A stretch of 64,000 nucleotides of DNA from Microvirga arsenatis (GTDB lineage Bacteria; Pseudomonadota; Alphaproteobacteria; Rhizobiales; Beijerinckiaceae). A program made the translations under genes and the position numbers. The notes beneath the pieces are model-generated. The model was not told the DNA's origin, searched no databases, and saw nothing but the letters and a program-made list of their open reading frames with translations. This document shows, piece after piece, positions 10,247 through 18,010 of this stretch (position 1 is its first letter; each line of letters opens with the position of its first letter). The stretch is from positions 372,001-436,000 of the forward strand of contig NZ_JAAAXJ010000004.1 in NCBI RefSeq assembly GCF_009910705.1, read 5' to 3'.

Positions 10247-11194
10247 TCAAGGTGAACTCACGTTACCTTGAGCGGTTGCAGGCACCCGCCAGCGGCGGTG
10301 CATCCACAGCCACTGCTCGGGATGTTCCCGCACCCATTCCTCCACCACGGAGGTCATGGCCTGCATGGCGCCCTGCACGTTGATCTGGCCGTCGGGATCG
10401 CGCGGCAGGTCGAGGGGCGGGGTGAGCTGCAGGCGGAACCGGTGGCCCGGCAGCCGGATCACCCGCACCCCGTGGACCGGGCAGTCGAACCGGCGGGCGA
10501 ATTTTCCCAGGATCGGGTTCACCAGGGCCGGGCGGCCCATGAAGTTCACGATCACCCCGCGGGTGAAGTGCTGGTCGATGAGCATGCCGAGATGCCCGCC
10601 CTTCTCCAGCGCTCCCTGCATGGCGAAGGCCGCGCCCTGGCGCGCGGCCTCGAGATTGCCCATGGTCTCGCTGCGGATCTCGTGCAGGACGCGGGCGATG
10701 GCCGGATCGTTGGGCGCCCGGAACACCGCCGTGGTGTCGAGCCCGAACCGCGCGGCGCAGATCGCCGGCAGCTCCCAATTGGCCAGATGGGCGGAGAAGA
10801 CGATGCCGGGCCTTCCATCATCCCTCAGGCTCAGGAAGTGCTCGATGCCGTCGACCTCCGTGCGGCCCGGCACCTCGCTGTCCGGATCGAAGTCGAACAG
10901 GCGCCCGAGATGGGGATATTCGCCGCCCGTGCGGCCGAGATTGTCCCAGGCGGCCAGGGCCAGGGCCTTCACCTCCGCCTCGGATTTCTCCGGATAGGCG
11001 GCTCGGATGTTGTTCACGGCTGTTTTGTGAGCCCGCAGGAGCGGCCCGATGGTGCGCGTGAGCGCCGCCCCCACCGCGCCGGAGCGCTCGGGGCCGAGGG
11101 CCCGGGACAGGGCGAAGACCCCGCGCACGACGCCGACCATCACCGTCTCGGTGAGACGCGAGAGAAGGCTGCGGGGGCGGTGGCTGGGCTGCAC
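10247..11194 (-). CDS. lpxXL: Very-long-chain acyltransferase of lipid A biosynthesis (LpxXL), LpxL/HtrB family
   Basis: 315 residues, inner-membrane associated. The acyltransferase motif HX4E is H136-E141 in SAHLANWE, followed by the family blocks FRAPNDPAI, GMLIDQHF and the C-terminal EQWLWMHRRWR. In Rhizobiales the copy next to the zinc-binding dehydrogenase and acpXL genes transfers the omega-1 hydroxylated C28 acyl group from AcpXL to lipid A, so that specific role is inferred from context. A terminator-like hairpin separates it from the upstream dehydrogenase. Confidence 0.88.
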   Translation of the reverse strand: MQPSHRPRSLLSRLTETVMVGVVRGVFALSRALGPERSGAVGAALTRTIGPLLRAHKTAVNNIRAAYPEKSEAEVKALALAAWDNLGRTGGEYPHLGRLFDFDPDSEVPGRTEVDGIEHFLSLRDDGRPGIVFSAHLANWELPAICAARFGLDTTAVFRAPNDPAIARVLHEIRSETMGNLEAARQGAAFAMQGALEKGGHLGMLIDQHFTRGVIVNFMGRPALVNPILGKFARRFDCPVHGVRVIRLPGHRFRLQLTPPLDLPRDPDGQINVQGAMQAMTSVVEEWVREHPEQWLWMHRRWRVPATAQGNVSSP

Positions 11195-11323: not shown

Positions 11324-12355
11324 TCAGAACGTCACGAGCACCTTGCCGAAGACCTTGCGGCCCTCGAGCCGCTCCAGGCCCTTCTGAAATTCGTCCAGGG
11401 GGAAGACCGAGTCGATCACCGGGGTCATGCCGCCAGCCATCTTGTCCAGCGACTGGGCGATGTTCTCGATCCGGCAGCCGAAGGAGCCGAAGATGCGGTA
11501 TTGCTGCTGGAAGAGCTGCATCAGGTTCATGGTGGTGGACACGCCCGAGGTGGAGCCGCAGGTGACGAGGCGTCCGCCGCGCTTGAGGCAGAGCAGCGAG
11601 CCGTTCCAGGTCTCGGCGCCCACATGCTCGAACACCACGTCGACGCCCTTGCGCTTGGTGAGGCGGCGCACCTCGCCCTCGAAGCGCTCGGTGCGGTAGT
11701 TGATCACGTGATCGGCCCCGAGCGCCCTCGCCTTCTCCGCCTTCTCGTCGTCGCCCACGGTCGTATAGACCGTGCAGCCGATGGCCTTGGCCATCTTGAT
11801 CGCCGCCGTGCCGATCCCGGAGCCGCCCGCATGGACGAGGATGGACTCGCCGGGCTCCAGCTTGGCGTTGTCGAACAGCATGTGCTGCACCGTGCCGAAG
11901 CCGATGGGCGCGCACGCCGCCTGCTCGAAGGAGACGCCGTTCGGCACCGGGATGACGAGCCGCTCCGGCCGGTTGATCAGCTCGCGGGCGAAGCCGTCGA
12001 TATGGAAGCCCATGATGCCGGCGACGTTCTCGCAGAGATTGTCCCAACCCTTCTGGCAGGCCTTGCAATGGCCGCAGGTCTCGGCCCCGTACATGGTCAC
12101 CGGATCGCCCGCCTTGAACCGCGTGACGCCCTCGCCCACCGCCGCGATCTCGCCCGAGGCCTCCACGCCCACGGCCTGGGGCATCTTGCGCTTGGCGAAG
12201 GCCATTCCGCGAAAGCCCCAGACGTCGAGGAAGTTCAGCGCCAGCGCCTTCACCCGCACCTGGACCTCGCCGGGAGCGGGCGGCGGCGGAGCGTCGATCT
12301 CGGTGATGCGGAGGTCACGGTCGCCGAACAACTGGAGGGAGCGCATGAGGGACAA
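11324..12355 (-). CDS. adh2XL: Zinc-binding dehydrogenase of the very-long-chain fatty acid cluster
   Basis: A 343-residue MDR-superfamily enzyme. The structural zinc loop is C94, C97, C100 and C108 (ETCGHCKACQKG). The nucleotide site is HAGGSGIGTAAIKMAKAIG near residues 166-184. In Rhizobium a dehydrogenase of this kind lies between fabF1XL and lpxXL and is taken to act on the long acyl chain; its exact reaction is unproven. It may be an enoyl reductase-like step of elongation. Here two unrelated genes separate it from the fab genes. Confidence 0.8.
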   Translation of the reverse strand: MSLMRSLQLFGDRDLRITEIDAPPPPAPGEVQVRVKALALNFLDVWGFRGMAFAKRKMPQAVGVEASGEIAAVGEGVTRFKAGDPVTMYGAETCGHCKACQKGWDNLCENVAGIMGFHIDGFARELINRPERLVIPVPNGVSFEQAACAPIGFGTVQHMLFDNAKLEPGESILVHAGGSGIGTAAIKMAKAIGCTVYTTVGDDEKAEKARALGADHVINYRTERFEGEVRRLTKRKGVDVVFEHVGAETWNGSLLCLKRGGRLVTCGSTSGVSTTMNLMQLFQQQYRIFGSFGCRIENIAQSLDKMAGGMTPVIDSVFPLDEFQKGLERLEGRKVFGKVLVTF

Positions 12356-12572: not shown

Positions 12573-13379
12573 TCAATCCCGAATGGCTCTCAAGTAACGC
12601 TCGACGGACCGGACCAGAGCCGCCTTTCCGTCCTGCAGGATGTTCCGGTGTGCGGAGGCTCCGAAGATCCGCTGGAACGGATAAGGCGCCAAGGCCGCAC
12701 CGATCCGCTCGACAGCGGAGCGGTTGAGCGGAATGAAGTTCGGGTAGCTGCGCATGAAGCTGACGTGGCGGCGGTCTTGAAGGACCGAGAGAGTATCCCC
12801 CACGAACAGGTCGCCCCCGCCATCCGCGCCGGCGGCATGATGCAGCACCGCGCTGCCCTCGAAATGCCCGCCGGTGCGGATCAGCGTGAAACCCGGCGCG
12901 ATCTCCAGGGTTTCGCCCGACCAGAACCGGATCGCCCCGTGCGGATTCATGACCCATGACCGGTCGTCTTCGTGGAGATAGACCGGCGCTCCGCCGAATG
13001 CTTCGCTCCATTCGGCCATCGCGGAGTAGAAATGCGGATGCGAGATCGCGATGGCCTTGAGGCCGCCCATGCGCCGGATGCGCTCGACCGCTTCCTCCTT
13101 CACCAGGGAGACGCAGTCCCACAGGATGGCGCCATCGCCCGTAGGAATCGCGAGCGCCCGCTGCCCGATGGCGAAGTCCGGCTCGATCCCGATGCCGATG
13201 GGGCCGCCTTCCTCGGTGAAGACGTTGCGGTGCTTGGTGCGCAATTCCTCGACGGTGGTCCATTCCTGTCCGGACCAGCGAACGTACTGGCGCTCGTCCT
13301 CGCAGATCGGACATGAGGGCGGCGGTGCAGGCGTCTCGGCGAATTGAGTGCCGCATTGAACGCAGATGAAGCGGGTCAT
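12573..13379 (-). CDS. MBL-fold protein with N-terminal zinc ribbon
   Basis: 268 residues. The N-terminus is a rubredoxin-like zinc ribbon (C6, C9, C23, C26). The rest reads as a metallo-beta-lactamase fold: SHPHFYSAMAEW (H114, H116), GGHFEGSAVLHH and FVGDTLSVL. The usual HxHxDH signature is incomplete, because the D-H pair after H116 is absent (F-Y-S instead), so one metal site may be altered or missing. No substrate is claimed. It interrupts the lipid A acyl-chain gene set together with the divergent membrane gene at 13486. Confidence 0.78.
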   Translation of the reverse strand: MTRFICVQCGTQFAETPAPPPSCPICEDERQYVRWSGQEWTTVEELRTKHRNVFTEEGGPIGIGIEPDFAIGQRALAIPTGDGAILWDCVSLVKEEAVERIRRMGGLKAIAISHPHFYSAMAEWSEAFGGAPVYLHEDDRSWVMNPHGAIRFWSGETLEIAPGFTLIRTGGHFEGSAVLHHAAGADGGGDLFVGDTLSVLQDRRHVSFMRSYPNFIPLNRSAVERIGAALAPYPFQRIFGASAHRNILQDGKAALVRSVERYLRAIRD

Positions 13380-13485: not shown

Positions 13486-14004
13486 GTGCAATCTGTCCTG
13501 TCGGTCATCAGCGGCACCCCTCTATGGGTTTGGGGCATTCTCGTGCTGATCGTCTATCTCGGCATGACGGCCATGCGCCCCGGCCGCAGAAGCCCTGCCC
13601 GCCTCAGCCTTGTTCCTGGAATCTTCCTGGCCGTGGCGCTCGGCACGCTTCTCAATTCGGCGCCTCTTGCCGATAGTCTCCCGCTCTGGCTGGCGGGTTG
13701 TCTCCTGGGGCTTGGGGTCGGGGCAACTTGGGCGATGGTTCTGCGGATCGGCATCGACCGGACGCAAGGGCTCATCCACATGCCCGGCACCGCGTTCTGG
13801 CTCGTGACCGGCCTCATCCTGTTCGGGATGCGTTATGCCATCGAAGTTTCGATGGCCGTCAACCGTGACTTGGTCGAGGAGAGCCTTCGGTCCACCCTGC
13901 CCTATGCCGTCGCCGGTCTCGGAACGGGCATGAGCGTCGGCTGGTGGGCTGCCCTCATGATGCGCTACTTTCGCGCTACCGATGCACGCCCAGCATCGAC
14001 GTGA
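13486..14004 (+). CDS. Conserved membrane protein, DUF6622-like
   Basis: 172 residues from a GTG with TGAGGA seven bases upstream. About five membrane helices: 12-28, 45-62, 70-88, 102-118 and 138-160. The opening (a ISGTPLWVWGILVLI-type helix, then a basic MRPGRRSPARL loop) resembles DUF6622-type proteins of unknown function; this is a by-eye impression. Divergent from the MBL-fold gene, and its last 29 bases overlap the convergent FabG-like gene. Confidence 0.65.
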   Translation: MQSVLSVISGTPLWVWGILVLIVYLGMTAMRPGRRSPARLSLVPGIFLAVALGTLLNSAPLADSLPLWLAGCLLGLGVGATWAMVLRIGIDRTQGLIHMPGTAFWLVTGLILFGMRYAIEVSMAVNRDLVEESLRSTLPYAVAGLGTGMSVGWWAALMMRYFRATDARPAST

Positions 14005-14722
14005 GGCCGCCGTCGATGGGAAGCACCGCGCCGGTGATGTAGGCGGCGGGCTCGCTCAGGAGGAAGGCGGCGAGCCCCGCGATCTCCTCCGGCTTGGCGA
14101 AGCGCCCGGCCGGAATCTGCTTTTCCATGTTGTCGCGGTAGGCCGCGTAGGGCGCCATCATGTCGGTGTCGATGAAGCCCGGCGCGATCACGTTCACGGT
14201 GACACCCCGCTTGGCGGTCTCGACGGACAAGGTGCGGCAATAGGAGATGAGCGCGCCCTTGGAGGCCGCATAGGCCGCGTTTCCGGGATTGCCCTGCAGC
14301 GCCGCCACCGAACCGATGGCGACGATGCGCCCGGCCTTCGCGCGGATCATCCCGCGCATGAGCGCCTTGGCGATGCGGGTCAGCGACCAGAAGTTCACCT
14401 GCATGGCGGCCTCGGCCTTGTCCTGCTGCATCATGGCGGCGAGCGCATCGTAGGGCTGGCCGGCATTGTGGATGAGCCCGAAGAAGCTCTCGCCCTCGAT
14501 GCTCTCGCAGAAGGCCTCGAGCGCCGCCTTGTCGGCGAGGTCGAGCGAATGCGCCGTGACGGTGCGGCCCGGGTTGGCTGCCACTAATTCATCGGCGAGC
14601 GCCTTCGCAGCCTCACCCGACGAGCGGTAGGTGAAATCCACATCATGGCCTGCGGCGACAAGCGCCCGCACGATGGCGGCGCCGACGCCCTTAGCCCCGC
14701 CCGTCACCAGAACCCGGGTCAT
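13976..14722 (-). CDS. FabG-like 3-oxoacyl-ACP reductase (SDR) of the very-long-chain cluster
   Basis: 248 residues. The SDR cofactor motif TGGAKGVG is at 7-14, NAG at 86-88, and the catalytic residues are S138, Y151 and K155. The gene starts 4 bases after the fabF1XL stop, so it belongs to the same transcript. With the ketosynthase pair, the dehydratase and the zinc-binding dehydrogenase, a ketoreductase completes an elongation cycle on AcpXL. This role is inferred from position; the sequence alone only says FabG-like SDR. Confidence 0.85.
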   Translation of the reverse strand: MTRVLVTGGAKGVGAAIVRALVAAGHDVDFTYRSSGEAAKALADELVAANPGRTVTAHSLDLADKAALEAFCESIEGESFFGLIHNAGQPYDALAAMMQQDKAEAAMQVNFWSLTRIAKALMRGMIRAKAGRIVAIGSVAALQGNPGNAAYAASKGALISYCRTLSVETAKRGVTVNVIAPGFIDTDMMAPYAAYRDNMEKQIPAGRFAKPEEIAGLAAFLLSEPAAYITGAVLPIDGGLTSMLGVHR

Positions 14723-14726
14723 GATC

Positions 14727-16007
14727 TCAAGCCCCTTTCGGATCGGCCCCGAAGACGAGGCAGGTGTTCTGGCCGCCGAAGCCGAAGGAGTTGGAGAGCA
14801 CGTAGGACACCCGCGCGTCGCGGGCGACGTTCGGCACCACGTCGAGGGGGATCGCGGGATCGGGCACCTGGTAGTTGATCGTCGGCGGGATGCGACCGGT
14901 GCCGATGGTCATGAGCGACATCACCGCCTCGACCGCGCCGGCGGCGGTGAGCGTGTGGCCGATCATCGACTTGTTGGAGGAGATCGGAAGGCTCGCCATG
15001 CGCTCGCCGAACACGGCGGTGCAGCTCATGGCCTCCATCTTGTCGTTCTCCGGCGTCGAGGTGCCGTGGGCGTTGATATAGTCGATGTCCTCCGGCGAGA
15101 GGCCCGCATCCTCGAGCGCCTGGCGGATCGCCATGATGGCCGGCATGCCGTCGGGCGAGGAGCGGGTGCGGTGGAAGCCGTCGCCCTTCTCGCCGCAGCC
15201 GAGCACATAGCCGAGGATCCTGGCGCCGCGCGCCCTGGCCTTCTCCGCGTCCTCCAGCACGAGCGCCGCGCCGCCCTCGCCCATGACGAAGCCGTCGCGG
15301 TTCTTGGAGAAGGGCTTTGAGGCGCCCTCCGGGTTCTCGTTCTGCGTCGAGAGCGCCGAGAGCAGGGAGAAGCGGATGAGGGATTCCGGATTGACCGAGC
15401 CGTCGGTGCCGATGCACAGGGCGGCATCCGTCTCGCCCCGGCGGATCGCCTCGACGCCGAGCTGGATCGCGGTGGCGCCGGACGAGCAGGCGGTGGAGAG
15501 CGAGATCGGCGAGCCCCGGGTGCCGAAGCGGTCGGCCACCCGGTCGGCCACGGTGCCGAAGATGAACAGGTCGTGCCACGCCTTGAAGCGACCGGTGCCG
15601 GCGGCCTTCAGGAGATCCTTGTAGGTGATCTCGCCGGTCTGGCCCGAGGCCTCGGCCAGCGCCTCTCGCTGGGGCCATTCCATCTCCACCGGCGGCACCG
15701 CGATGAAGAGCGCTCCCGGAAAGCTCTCGTGGCTCAGGCCCGACTGGGCCACCGCCTCCTCGGCCGCCAGCATGGCGAGCCGCTCGGAGAGCATGGGCGC
15801 GCAGAAGGGCTCCACGTCCACCGAGTCGATGGTGCCGGCGATCGTGGTGCGCAGGCCCTCCGTGGGAAAGCGCTCGATGCGGTGGATGCCGGATTTTCCT
15901 GCCGTGAGGGCTGCCCAAGTGTCGTCCCTGCCCTGGCCGAGGGACGTGACCGTGCCCATGCCGGTGACGGCGACGAGCGGGCGGCCTTTCGTGTCGCGAA
16001 GCGCCAT
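14727..16007 (-). CDS. fabF1XL: Catalytic beta-ketoacyl-ACP synthase of the very-long-chain cluster
   Basis: 426 residues, thiolase fold. The full Cys-His-His triad is present: C174 in STACSSG, H314 in NAHGTSTPEND and H351 in NKSMIGHTLTAAGA. It condenses malonyl-ACP with the growing chain, here presumably the chain on AcpXL that becomes the C28 acyl group of lipid A. The start is the ATG before ALRDTKGRPLVAVTG; a longer open frame upstream overlaps fabF2XL and is rejected. It lies 11 bases after the fabF2XL stop. Confidence 0.92.
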   Translation of the reverse strand: MALRDTKGRPLVAVTGMGTVTSLGQGRDDTWAALTAGKSGIHRIERFPTEGLRTTIAGTIDSVDVEPFCAPMLSERLAMLAAEEAVAQSGLSHESFPGALFIAVPPVEMEWPQREALAEASGQTGEITYKDLLKAAGTGRFKAWHDLFIFGTVADRVADRFGTRGSPISLSTACSSGATAIQLGVEAIRRGETDAALCIGTDGSVNPESLIRFSLLSALSTQNENPEGASKPFSKNRDGFVMGEGGAALVLEDAEKARARGARILGYVLGCGEKGDGFHRTRSSPDGMPAIMAIRQALEDAGLSPEDIDYINAHGTSTPENDKMEAMSCTAVFGERMASLPISSNKSMIGHTLTAAGAVEAVMSLMTIGTGRIPPTINYQVPDPAIPLDVVPNVARDARVSYVLSNSFGFGGQNTCLVFGADPKGA

Positions 16008-16018
16008 AGCCTTCTCCC

Positions 16019-17143
16019 TCAAGCTCTGGTGATCCGGATGGCGCCCTCGCCGCGCCAGTGCCCGATGGAGGTGACGAGGGCCTCGTTCGCTCCGCCCTGC
16101 GCGACAAGACCCGCCGCCAGCGCGACGCCGGTGTGAGCCTGGGCTTCCATGGTGTGGCCGACGAGATCGCCGGTTGCGTGAATCGTCGCGCCAGGCGCGA
16201 TGTCCTTCAGGGCCGCCTGCTCCTCCTCCGTGATGCCCTTGACGCCCGTGGCGCCCGACAGCACCAGGTCGGGCTTGGCCCCGAGCTGCCGCGACAGGCC
16301 GTGAAGCGCGCCCTCGACGCTGCCGGCCTTGCGGCGGCTGCGGTCGGAGGCGACGCCGGCGATGGCGGCCAGAGGCTTCGCCCCGCGCGAGGCGGCGTGC
16401 TCGCGGGATTCCAGCACCAGGAAGCAGGCTCCGCTGCCCAGGATCATGCCGCCGCCCTCGGGCCCGCGTTTCCAGACGGGACGGTAGGGCTGCTTCCAAA
16501 GGAAGCCGCCCATCTCGTAGATCAGGAGCACGTCGGGCCGCTCGGCGTTGTAGGCGCCGCCCACCAGGAAGATGTCGTCCTGCCCCGAGGCGATGCGTTC
16601 GCGGGCGATGCGGATCGCGTCCACGCCGCTCGATTCCTCGCCCATGAAGGTGCGCGAGGCGCCCGTGACCCCGTGGACGATGGAGATGTTGCCGGCGAGC
16701 AGGTTCGAAAGCTGCGCGAGAAAGAGGGTCGGTCGCAGGTCGCTCATCAGGCGCTCGTTGAGGAAGACGCCCGGGTTGTCGGCCTTGCGGAGCCCGGTGA
16801 GGATCCCCCCGTCGACGGCATAGTCGCGCTCGCCGCCGCCGGCGGAGACGATGAGCTGCATGCGGCCCTTCAAGGCCGCATCATCCTTGGCGCCGGCCGC
16901 GTCGAGGGCAAGGCCCGCCGCATAGCAGCCCAGCTTCTGCCAGGGCTCCATCTGCCGCTGGTCGGATTTCTTGGGGATCTGCCGGTCCCATTCCAGCGGG
17001 GTTGCCGGATGGACCGGGAAAGGCTCGAAGGCGGCCGTGTCGGTCCTGGGCGCCGCCCCGCCGGCGAGCGCCGCCAGATGCGTCTCCAGGCCCTCTCCGG
17101 CGCAGGAGACGATCCCGATCCCCGTGATGACGACGTCCCGCAT
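16019..17143 (-). CDS. fabF2XL: Ketosynthase-like protein without catalytic Cys (second KAS of the cluster)
   Basis: 374 residues, shorter than its neighbour KAS. The N-terminal MRDVVITGIGIVS and the block SSGVDAIRIARERIASGQDD align with the KAS fold, but the active-site Cys position is E170 (GEESSG where FabF1 has ACSSG). The first catalytic His position is also not His (LSGATGVKG); only H330 in GDLVGHT remains. It therefore cannot do normal condensation and may act as a chain-length-factor-like partner (inference). The ATG shares one base with the fabZ stop (TGATG). Confidence 0.85.
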   Translation of the reverse strand: MRDVVITGIGIVSCAGEGLETHLAALAGGAAPRTDTAAFEPFPVHPATPLEWDRQIPKKSDQRQMEPWQKLGCYAAGLALDAAGAKDDAALKGRMQLIVSAGGGERDYAVDGGILTGLRKADNPGVFLNERLMSDLRPTLFLAQLSNLLAGNISIVHGVTGASRTFMGEESSGVDAIRIARERIASGQDDIFLVGGAYNAERPDVLLIYEMGGFLWKQPYRPVWKRGPEGGGMILGSGACFLVLESREHAASRGAKPLAAIAGVASDRSRRKAGSVEGALHGLSRQLGAKPDLVLSGATGVKGITEEEQAALKDIAPGATIHATGDLVGHTMEAQAHTGVALAAGLVAQGGANEALVTSIGHWRGEGAIRITRA

Positions 17144-17604
17144 CAAACGCTCTCCTCCAGGAGGCCGATGCGCCGGGCTTGCGCGCGCATCAGGCCGTCC
17201 ATGCCTTCGGGAAAGGGCATGATCCGGAAGCGCAGCTCCGCATCGCAGATCGGCTTGCCCTCGGCCGTGATCCTGGCCTTGGTCACCGCATAGCCCGAGC
17301 CCTCGTGCTCCAGCTGCGCCGTGACGGCGAGCACCGTACCCGGTCCCACGAAGGTGCGAAAGCGCGCCTTATCGACGCCCATCAGGAACGGCATGTGGGT
17401 GAAGCCCATGAGGCCGAGCACCAGATAGCCGGAGGCCTGGGCCATGGTTTCGGTGAGAAGGACGCCGGGCACCAGGGGATGGCCGGGGAAATGCCCTTCG
17501 AAGACGGGGCTTTCCTGCGGGACGACGGAGGAGACCTCGATCCGCTTGGTCTCGCGGTCGAGGCTCGTCACCCGGTCGATCATTTCAAAATATTCGAGGC
17601 GCAT
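17143..17604 (-). CDS. fabZXL: 3-hydroxyacyl-ACP dehydratase FabZ-like of the very-long-chain cluster
   Basis: 153 residues, hot-dog fold. The FabZ active-site block GHFPGHPLVPGVLLTETMAQ is intact, with its conserved His and the Glu supplied by ETMAQ. It dehydrates 3-hydroxyacyl-ACP in each elongation round. The start is the ATG before RLEYFEMIDRV; upstream in-frame codons lack similarity. The stop codon overlaps the fabF2XL start. Confidence 0.92.
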   Translation of the reverse strand: MRLEYFEMIDRVTSLDRETKRIEVSSVVPQESPVFEGHFPGHPLVPGVLLTETMAQASGYLVLGLMGFTHMPFLMGVDKARFRTFVGPGTVLAVTAQLEHEGSGYAVTKARITAEGKPICDAELRFRIMPFPEGMDGLMRAQARRIGLLEESV

Positions 17605-17728: not shown

Positions 17729-18010
17729 TCAGGCCTGCTTGGCGGCCACCAGCGCGTCGATGCGCGCCACGAGGTTCTTCAGGACGAAGTATTCCTCGGC
17801 CGGGGCCTTGCCCTCGTTCACCTCCTGGGTCCACTGCTCCAGGGGCAGCTTGATCCCGAAGGCCTTGTCGATGGCGAACGCGATGTCGAGGAAGGCGAGC
17901 GAGTCGATGCCCAGATCCTCGATGGCGTGGCTCTCGGGCGTGATCTGCTCGCGCGGGATGTCGGCCGTCTCTGAAATGATGCCGGCGACGGTCTCGAAGG
18001 TGGACGACAT
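17729..18010 (-). CDS. acpXL: Acyl carrier protein AcpXL
   Basis: 93 residues. The phosphopantetheine site is S37 in [18 protein letters not shown], and the protein is acidic. AcpXL is the dedicated carrier on which Rhizobiales build the 27-hydroxyoctacosanoyl group of lipid A. The assignment rests on the ACP motif, the longer C-terminal helix region than in housekeeping ACP, and the downstream fabZ-fabF2-fabF1 order. It is the first gene of the cluster, 124 bases before fabZXL. Confidence 0.92.

Follow-up and report, generated by a model that had tools for sequence, protein, structure and literature searches.

Why should a cluster for the very long acyl chain of lipid A carry two adjacent genes for ketosynthase-like proteins, when one of the two products has lost the residues with which a ketosynthase condenses? 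Very long chain fatty acids (VLCFAs) are part of the outer membrane in rhizobia and other alphaproteobacteria, and matter there for stress tolerance and symbiosis. The question is posed by a 64,000-nucleotide stretch of the Microvirga arsenatis genome (contig NZ_JAAAXJ010000004.1, positions 372,001 to 436,000; hereafter the window), whose genes read on the minus strand in the order acpXL, fabZXL, fabF2XL, fabF1XL, an SDR ketoreductase gene and, after two further frames, an adhA2XL-like gene and lpxXL. AcpXL, the acyl carrier protein that serves the very long chain pathway (17729..18010, minus strand), scores 171.4 bits with NF005079 (cut-off 83). It is followed by the open reading frame of the FabZXL dehydratase (17143..17604, minus strand; FabA-like domain in Pfam), whose stop codon has one base in common with the start of fabF2XL. 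FabF2XL, known from its open reading frame and translation, has 374 amino acids (16019..17143, minus strand; ATG at 17143, stop codon ending at 16019) and scores 547.5 bits with NCBIfam NF005084 (PRK06519; curated cut-off 320); among the matches listed its nearest named relatives are Microvirga species, with identity up to 90%. After a gap of 11 bases comes fabF1XL (14727..16007, minus strand), encoding a catalytic ketosynthase of 426 amino acids with C174, H314, K346, H351, F408 and F410 (NF005076, 754.1 bits, cut-off 629), and directly after it the SDR/FabG-like ketoreductase (13976..14722, minus strand; Pfam adh_short_C2). Further along the same strand lie an AdhA2XL-like medium-chain reductase, by family match a candidate enoyl reductase (11324..12355), and the LpxXL acyltransferase (10247..11194; NF005120, 442.8 bits, cut-off 273). 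From these genes the strain would be expected to produce the C28 acid.

A sequence-only reading of this DNA had assigned C174, H314 and H351 to FabF1XL, and to FabF2XL a Glu in place of the Cys (E170), loss of the first His and retention of the second (H330). Translation and alignment bear out each of these residues, with T299 standing where the first His would be. The loss goes further than that reading had it, since the catalytic Lys (K346 in FabF1XL) corresponds to G325 in FabF2XL, and the F-G-F-G-G gate of ketosynthases is replaced by G-H-W-R-G-E. The codons of E169-E170, which take the place of Ala173-Cys174 of FabF1XL, lie at 16634..16639 (minus strand, computed from the ATG at 17143). 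FabF2XL thus does not show the Cys-His-His and Lys pattern of a catalytic beta-ketoacyl-ACP synthase (KAS I/II), the Cys, first His and Lys being absent.

Conservation of the Cys loss across orthologues had been named beforehand as one of the points on which the reading could fall, and it stood: among 136 FabF2XL sequences that could be paired with a FabF1XL, Cys occurred in none and Glu in all 136. A second set of 107 (the window, 26 from sampled genomes and 80 named loci) gave Glu in 107 of 107, with Thr, Ser, Cys or Ala at the first-His position in 106 and a gap in the remaining one. The named loci, taken as the best 80 of 592 stretches, over-represent close relatives. L005, which is the window again, was left out of both counts, L026, with no FabF1XL on its contig, out of the 136 pairs, and second copies in L190-L198 belong to neither set. 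E105, R106, D107, D111, E169 and E170 were identical in 107/107 and 136/136 sequences, and C174, H314, K346 and H351 in all 136 partner FabF1XL proteins; the Sinorhizobium meliloti FabF2XL orthologue has the same T-F-M-G-E-E motif. The loss of catalytic residues is thus conserved, with invariant charges in their place, and is not drift. H330 is near-invariant (His in 103/107 and 132/136); as a candidate for a surviving catalytic His it is weakened by the four of 136 sequences that do without it.

FabF2XL is nevertheless needed. According to the available portions of PMC11901934, an insertion in fabF2XL of Agrobacterium fabrum leaves lipid A with no VLCFA, and plasmid-borne fabF2XL alone partly restores it; the phenotype described there is loss of the VLCFA, not a changed length. 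In Bradyrhizobium ORS278, acpXL, fabZXL, fabF1XL and fabF2XL could not be disrupted (PMC5613085, as far as its text was available). Since the fabF2XL mutant lacks VLCFA, a catalytically empty protein is required even though FabF1XL has all the catalytic residues. The chains named in the available parts of both papers are C26:25OH, C28:27OH and C30:29OH, with the hydroxyl at omega-1. In the portions of the published texts at hand FabF2XL is called a 3-oxoacyl-ACP or beta-ketoacyl-ACP synthase, or an elongation protein. We found no chain length factor (CLF) role for it in the open PMC literature, and the available parts of the open literature yielded no account of how VLCFA length is set.

We then asked how strictly the two proteins go together, using samples of genomes from the class and the order (FabF2XL at E <= 1e-60, FabF1XL at E <= 1e-120). 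In the class sample FabF2XL was present in 18 and FabF1XL in 17 of 385 genomes, the 17 all lying within the 18; in the odd genome FabF2XL is cut by a contig end. The order sample gave 64 of 249 genomes for each protein, in identical sets; in 63 of the 64 FabF1XL follows FabF2XL on that strand, no more than 1.5 kb downstream. The exception, G545 (88% complete), has one FabF2XL match, which is partial, and its two FabF1XL matches lie on other contigs. In a phylum sample whose share outside the class is not stated, FabF2XL was found in 28 of 299 genomes (E <= 1e-30), all 28 from the same class or nearer. The pairing is therefore strict and FabF2XL, as is the case for type II polyketide CLFs, is paired with a catalytic ketosynthase (KS).

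The pair also persists where the operon does not. FabF1XL adjoins FabF2XL in 67 of the 80 named loci (best 80 of 592 stretches); in the other 13, of which 12 are from Methylobacterium and 11 have at least 5 kb of downstream sequence, no FabF1XL lies beside it. All 13 of these genomes carry, elsewhere, a FabF1XL above the family cut-off with its catalytic motifs intact, so the pair is retained although the operon is broken. The split loci are L047-L052, L057, L059, L071, L073 and L088, with L081 and L089 having shorter flanks. Duplication, too, is paired: five genomes of the order sample (G035, G465, G478, G514 and G573) have two matches of each family, and the extra copies that we read kept G-E-E in FabF2XL (G035, G514, G465, G478) and Cys, His, Lys and His in FabF1XL (G035, G514). 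On a Bradyrhizobium plasmid classed as conjugative, fabF2XL and fabF1XL lie beside a gene for a methyltransferase (L189:5246-8501), and neither acpXL nor fabZXL is listed with them in the 13-kb stretch. A 1.5-Mb genome retains acpXL, fabF2XL, fabF1XL, the reductase and lpxXL (L196:1957-6731); a scan of that locus revealed no fabZXL and placed acpXL just some 30 bases ahead of the fabF2XL match.

In certain genomes from the order (L190, L191, L195, and also L192-L194) the pair is present a second time, as a divergent set. In the extra FabF2XL of L190, L191, L193 and L195, Met167 is replaced by Lys and G-E-E is unchanged.

An obvious precedent for such a pair is found in type II polyketide synthases, whose CLFs are ketosynthase homologues without the Cys that partner a KS in a heterodimer and shape chain length. 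Like these CLFs (for example 1tqy_B), FabF2XL has a ketosynthase fold without the Cys and first His, and its gene lies beside that of a catalytic KS. FabF2XL and the CLFs also share an acidic residue immediately ahead of the Cys position, Asp or Glu in four of four full-length Streptomyces CLFs and E169 in FabF2XL. In detail, however, the two differ. At the Cys site all four CLFs read x-[DE]-Q-A-G-G-L-D-A, whereas FabF2XL reads M-G-E-E-x-x-G-x-D-A, so that the Gln motif is missing; at the first-His site the four have Asp in place of Thr299; and they keep the Lys and change the second His to Arg, the reverse of FabF2XL, in which the Lys is lost and the second His kept. All four catalytic places thus set FabF2XL apart from full-length type II CLFs, which counts against reading it as CLF-like. 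The products differ as well, a lipid A fatty acid for FabF1XL-FabF2XL and a polyketide for type II KS-CLF. Because the type II signature is not found, we describe FabF2XL as probably working like a CLF and do not class it among the type II CLFs. FabF2XL shares its overall fold with FabF (KAS II) and lacks the catalytic residues; FabF1XL is a catalytic KS that resembles FabF.

Phylogeny was compatible with either relationship. In a tree of 54 rows, from which three short rows (two ApeC and one truncated CLF-like) were left out, FabF2XL, FabF1XL, the CLFs and KS-alpha each formed one group with bootstrap 100, and FabF2XL with the CLFs was split from the KSs at 82/93; a 36-row tree, made from the same set minus two long-branch rows and with the XL rows thinned, was without that split, and the branches are long. 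The AU test rejected neither the joining of FabF2XL with the CLFs (p 0.394) nor that with FabF1XL (p 0.16).

CLF-type partners in reducing, fatty-acid-like pathways with their own ACP, DH and KR genes are found in the aryl polyene pair ApeO-ApeC (PMC8358021, available portions) and the ishigamide pair Iga11-Iga12 (6kxd). By analogy, and on the available portions of PMC8358021, the aryl polyene KS-CLF, from a reducing Gram-negative pathway, provides the nearest functional parallel to FabF1XL-FabF2XL. ApeC is half-length, the E. coli CFT073 protein having 240 aa, in contrast to the full-length FabF2XL; the E/D-Q motif is missing also from the two ApeC proteins compared. A catalogue of type II KS-CLF pairs classes many non-actinobacterial pairs as FAS-FAS and raises a wider definition of CLF (PMC10132072, available portions); its main text has no word starting with 'rhizobi' and no 'lipid A'.

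Residues 101-175 of FabF2XL, 20% of its length, hold 28 of its 57 near-invariant positions (5 of 374 circular shifts gave as many), and residues 261-374, the region that holds the His, Lys and Phe residues in real ketosynthases, hold 5 (5 of 114 residues). FabF1XL is the mirror image: of its 100 near-invariant positions, residues 94-165 contain 5 (a count that low came up in 13 of 426 shifts), and its catalytic parts are strongly conserved. The shift counts are a guide and not a preset test, because the bounds of the segments were chosen after viewing the alignments. Constraint in FabF2XL has thus shifted away from the catalytic C-lobe, and it appears to have moved to the segment that in ketosynthases forms the dimer face and acyl pocket. 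The FabF segment matching residues 101-175 starts with an S-G-I-G-G loop, in which Ile108 limits the acyl pocket at the dimer interface; an I108F mutant structure (PDB 4ls6) is among the Foldseek matches listed for FabF2XL. At the place of this loop FabF1XL has P-P-V-E108-M-E110-W and FabF2XL G-G-G-E105-R106-D107-Y, the two being mutually aligned by profile comparison (codons G103-G104-E105-R106-D107 to D111 of FabF2XL at 16811..16837, minus strand, computed from the ATG at 17143). Both XL proteins are rebuilt around the pocket loop.

AlphaFold2 gives FabF2XL a full ketosynthase fold with mean pLDDT 90.6; confidence is lowest at about residues 101-150, which might fit a segment that needs a partner, and proves nothing. 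Fold searches did not separate FabF from CLF, FabF structures ranking equal to or above CLF structures among the 50 matches listed in each. Most of the 50 Foldseek matches are FabF, with the actinorhodin CLF 1tqy_B at rank 39 (E 2.1e-22), and among the 50 from VIA-align (Z 41.3-42.9) one, 6kxf, is a KS/CLF entry. The PDB gave no match to a profile search with stricter settings, and a literature search for PDB entry 9s5h found nothing related. Residues 94-142 of the FabF1XL profile are unaligned with its best PDB match, 1j3n, which we considered as evidence for a CLF-like pair and dropped, given that the FabF entries 3o04 and 5sxo are covered continuously through 8-420. Mean-field DCA between FabF1XL and FabF2XL, applied to the 136 pairs (at 85% identity, effective number 66), yielded no signal that could be interpreted: the top pairs were scattered, and the intra-protein pairs were unconvincing too.

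On this evidence we think it probable that FabF2XL does no catalysis itself: it would be a ketosynthase homologue bound to FabF1XL in an obligate heterodimer, acting in the manner of a chain length factor. A protein that is catalytically empty yet needed, and paired with a catalytically full relative, has the look of a CLF, and for this reason we take the pair to be a heterodimer. FabF1XL, with its full Cys-His-His-Lys set, would perform the condensations on AcpXL, and FabF2XL would contribute its own half of the dimer face as well as the wall at the far side of the acyl tunnel. The C26-C30 chain would be housed in this tunnel, and growth would end once the tunnel is full. The physical heterodimer, the crossing of the tunnel into FabF2XL and the setting of length are thus what we infer. 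Of the KS/CLF-like pair put forward in the sequence-only reading, the pairing has gained from the published requirement for fabF2XL, the co-occurrence, the paired duplication and the plasmid-borne pair, and the likeness to type II CLFs did not extend to their residue signature. Against this reading it may be said that ketosynthase homodimers are also able to make very long chains, as mycobacterial KasA and KasB do, and that the mutant loses its VLCFA instead of making one of altered length. If the CLF-like heterodimer is correct, chain-length control of this kind enters lipid A synthesis, the need for both fabF genes is explained, and the misleading NF005084 annotation is corrected, with a short list of residues for testing.

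That annotation is one ground for regarding FabF2XL simply as a second beta-ketoacyl-ACP synthase, now with an unusual nucleophile: NCBIfam NF005084, the record annotation and the papers all name it so. The name rests on homology and implies an activity that the residues do not support. A plain second KAS we reject on the residues, and given Glu in place of the Cys in all 136 sequences, with the first His and Lys gone too, a synthase with another nucleophile is very improbable. Alternatively, FabF2XL might have retained or acquired a chemistry of its own. The conserved charged cluster seems to exceed what a mere filler would need and could support a reaction, which speaks against the CLF-like heterodimer; the six charged residues at or close to the Cys and pocket loops occur in 136 of 136 sequences, and H330 in 132, which is unusual for a dead site. 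One such reaction would be decarboxylative priming by the E169/E170/H330 cluster, in the manner of the KSQ loading decarboxylase domains of type I polyketide synthases, which have Gln at the Cys position and keep both His. FabF2XL shares with these domains a polar residue for the Cys, but by that general definition it is not one of them, having Glu, no first His and no Lys, and constraint is weakest in its C-lobe, where 5 of 114 positions are near-invariant. We consider a chemistry of its own unlikely.

FabF2XL could instead be a scaffold or stabilising subunit of FabF1XL, or a platform for docking of the carrier protein, with no contact to the acyl chain and no effect on its length. Total loss of VLCFA in the mutant is what losing a stabilising subunit should produce (PMC11901934, available portions), but conservation, judged by position along the chain, seems strongest in the segment from the pocket loop to the Cys loop and not surface-wide, and we find such a purely structural role rather doubtful.

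A bolder form of the CLF-like heterodimer concerns the hydroxyl of the chain. The omega-1 OH of 27-hydroxy-C28 may be the un-dehydrated hydroxyl of the first cycle, derived from a 3-hydroxybutyryl primer, since omega-1 is where the oxygen of a first-cycle 3-hydroxybutyryl would stay if that cycle skipped dehydration. E105, R106, D107, E169, E170 and H330 of FabF2XL, and with them E108 and E110 of FabF1XL, would then form a polar tunnel end that recognises this hydroxyl, and FabF2XL would measure the chain from its far end. The idea of hydroxyl-end recognition is drawn from biosynthetic logic and we hold it to be a long shot. The cluster supplies genes for ACP, KS, CLF-like protein, DH and ER, and the KR gene (13976-14722) is found in 57 of the 80 named loci (best 80 of 592 stretches).

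The surroundings of the pair are less constant. Between the ketoreductase and reductase genes of the window lie two frames without a Pfam match (12573-13379, minus strand, and 13486-14001, plus strand), which at the thresholds used are present in 0 and 1 of the 80 named loci (best 80 of 592), respectively. The AdhA2XL-like reductase is found in 55 of the 80 (best 80 of 592 stretches; flanks of at most 6 kb). The FabG-like ketoreductase gene, 4 bases after fabF1XL in the window, is not listed in the S. meliloti cluster; given its presence in the 57 named loci, the cluster differs in gene content between lineages.
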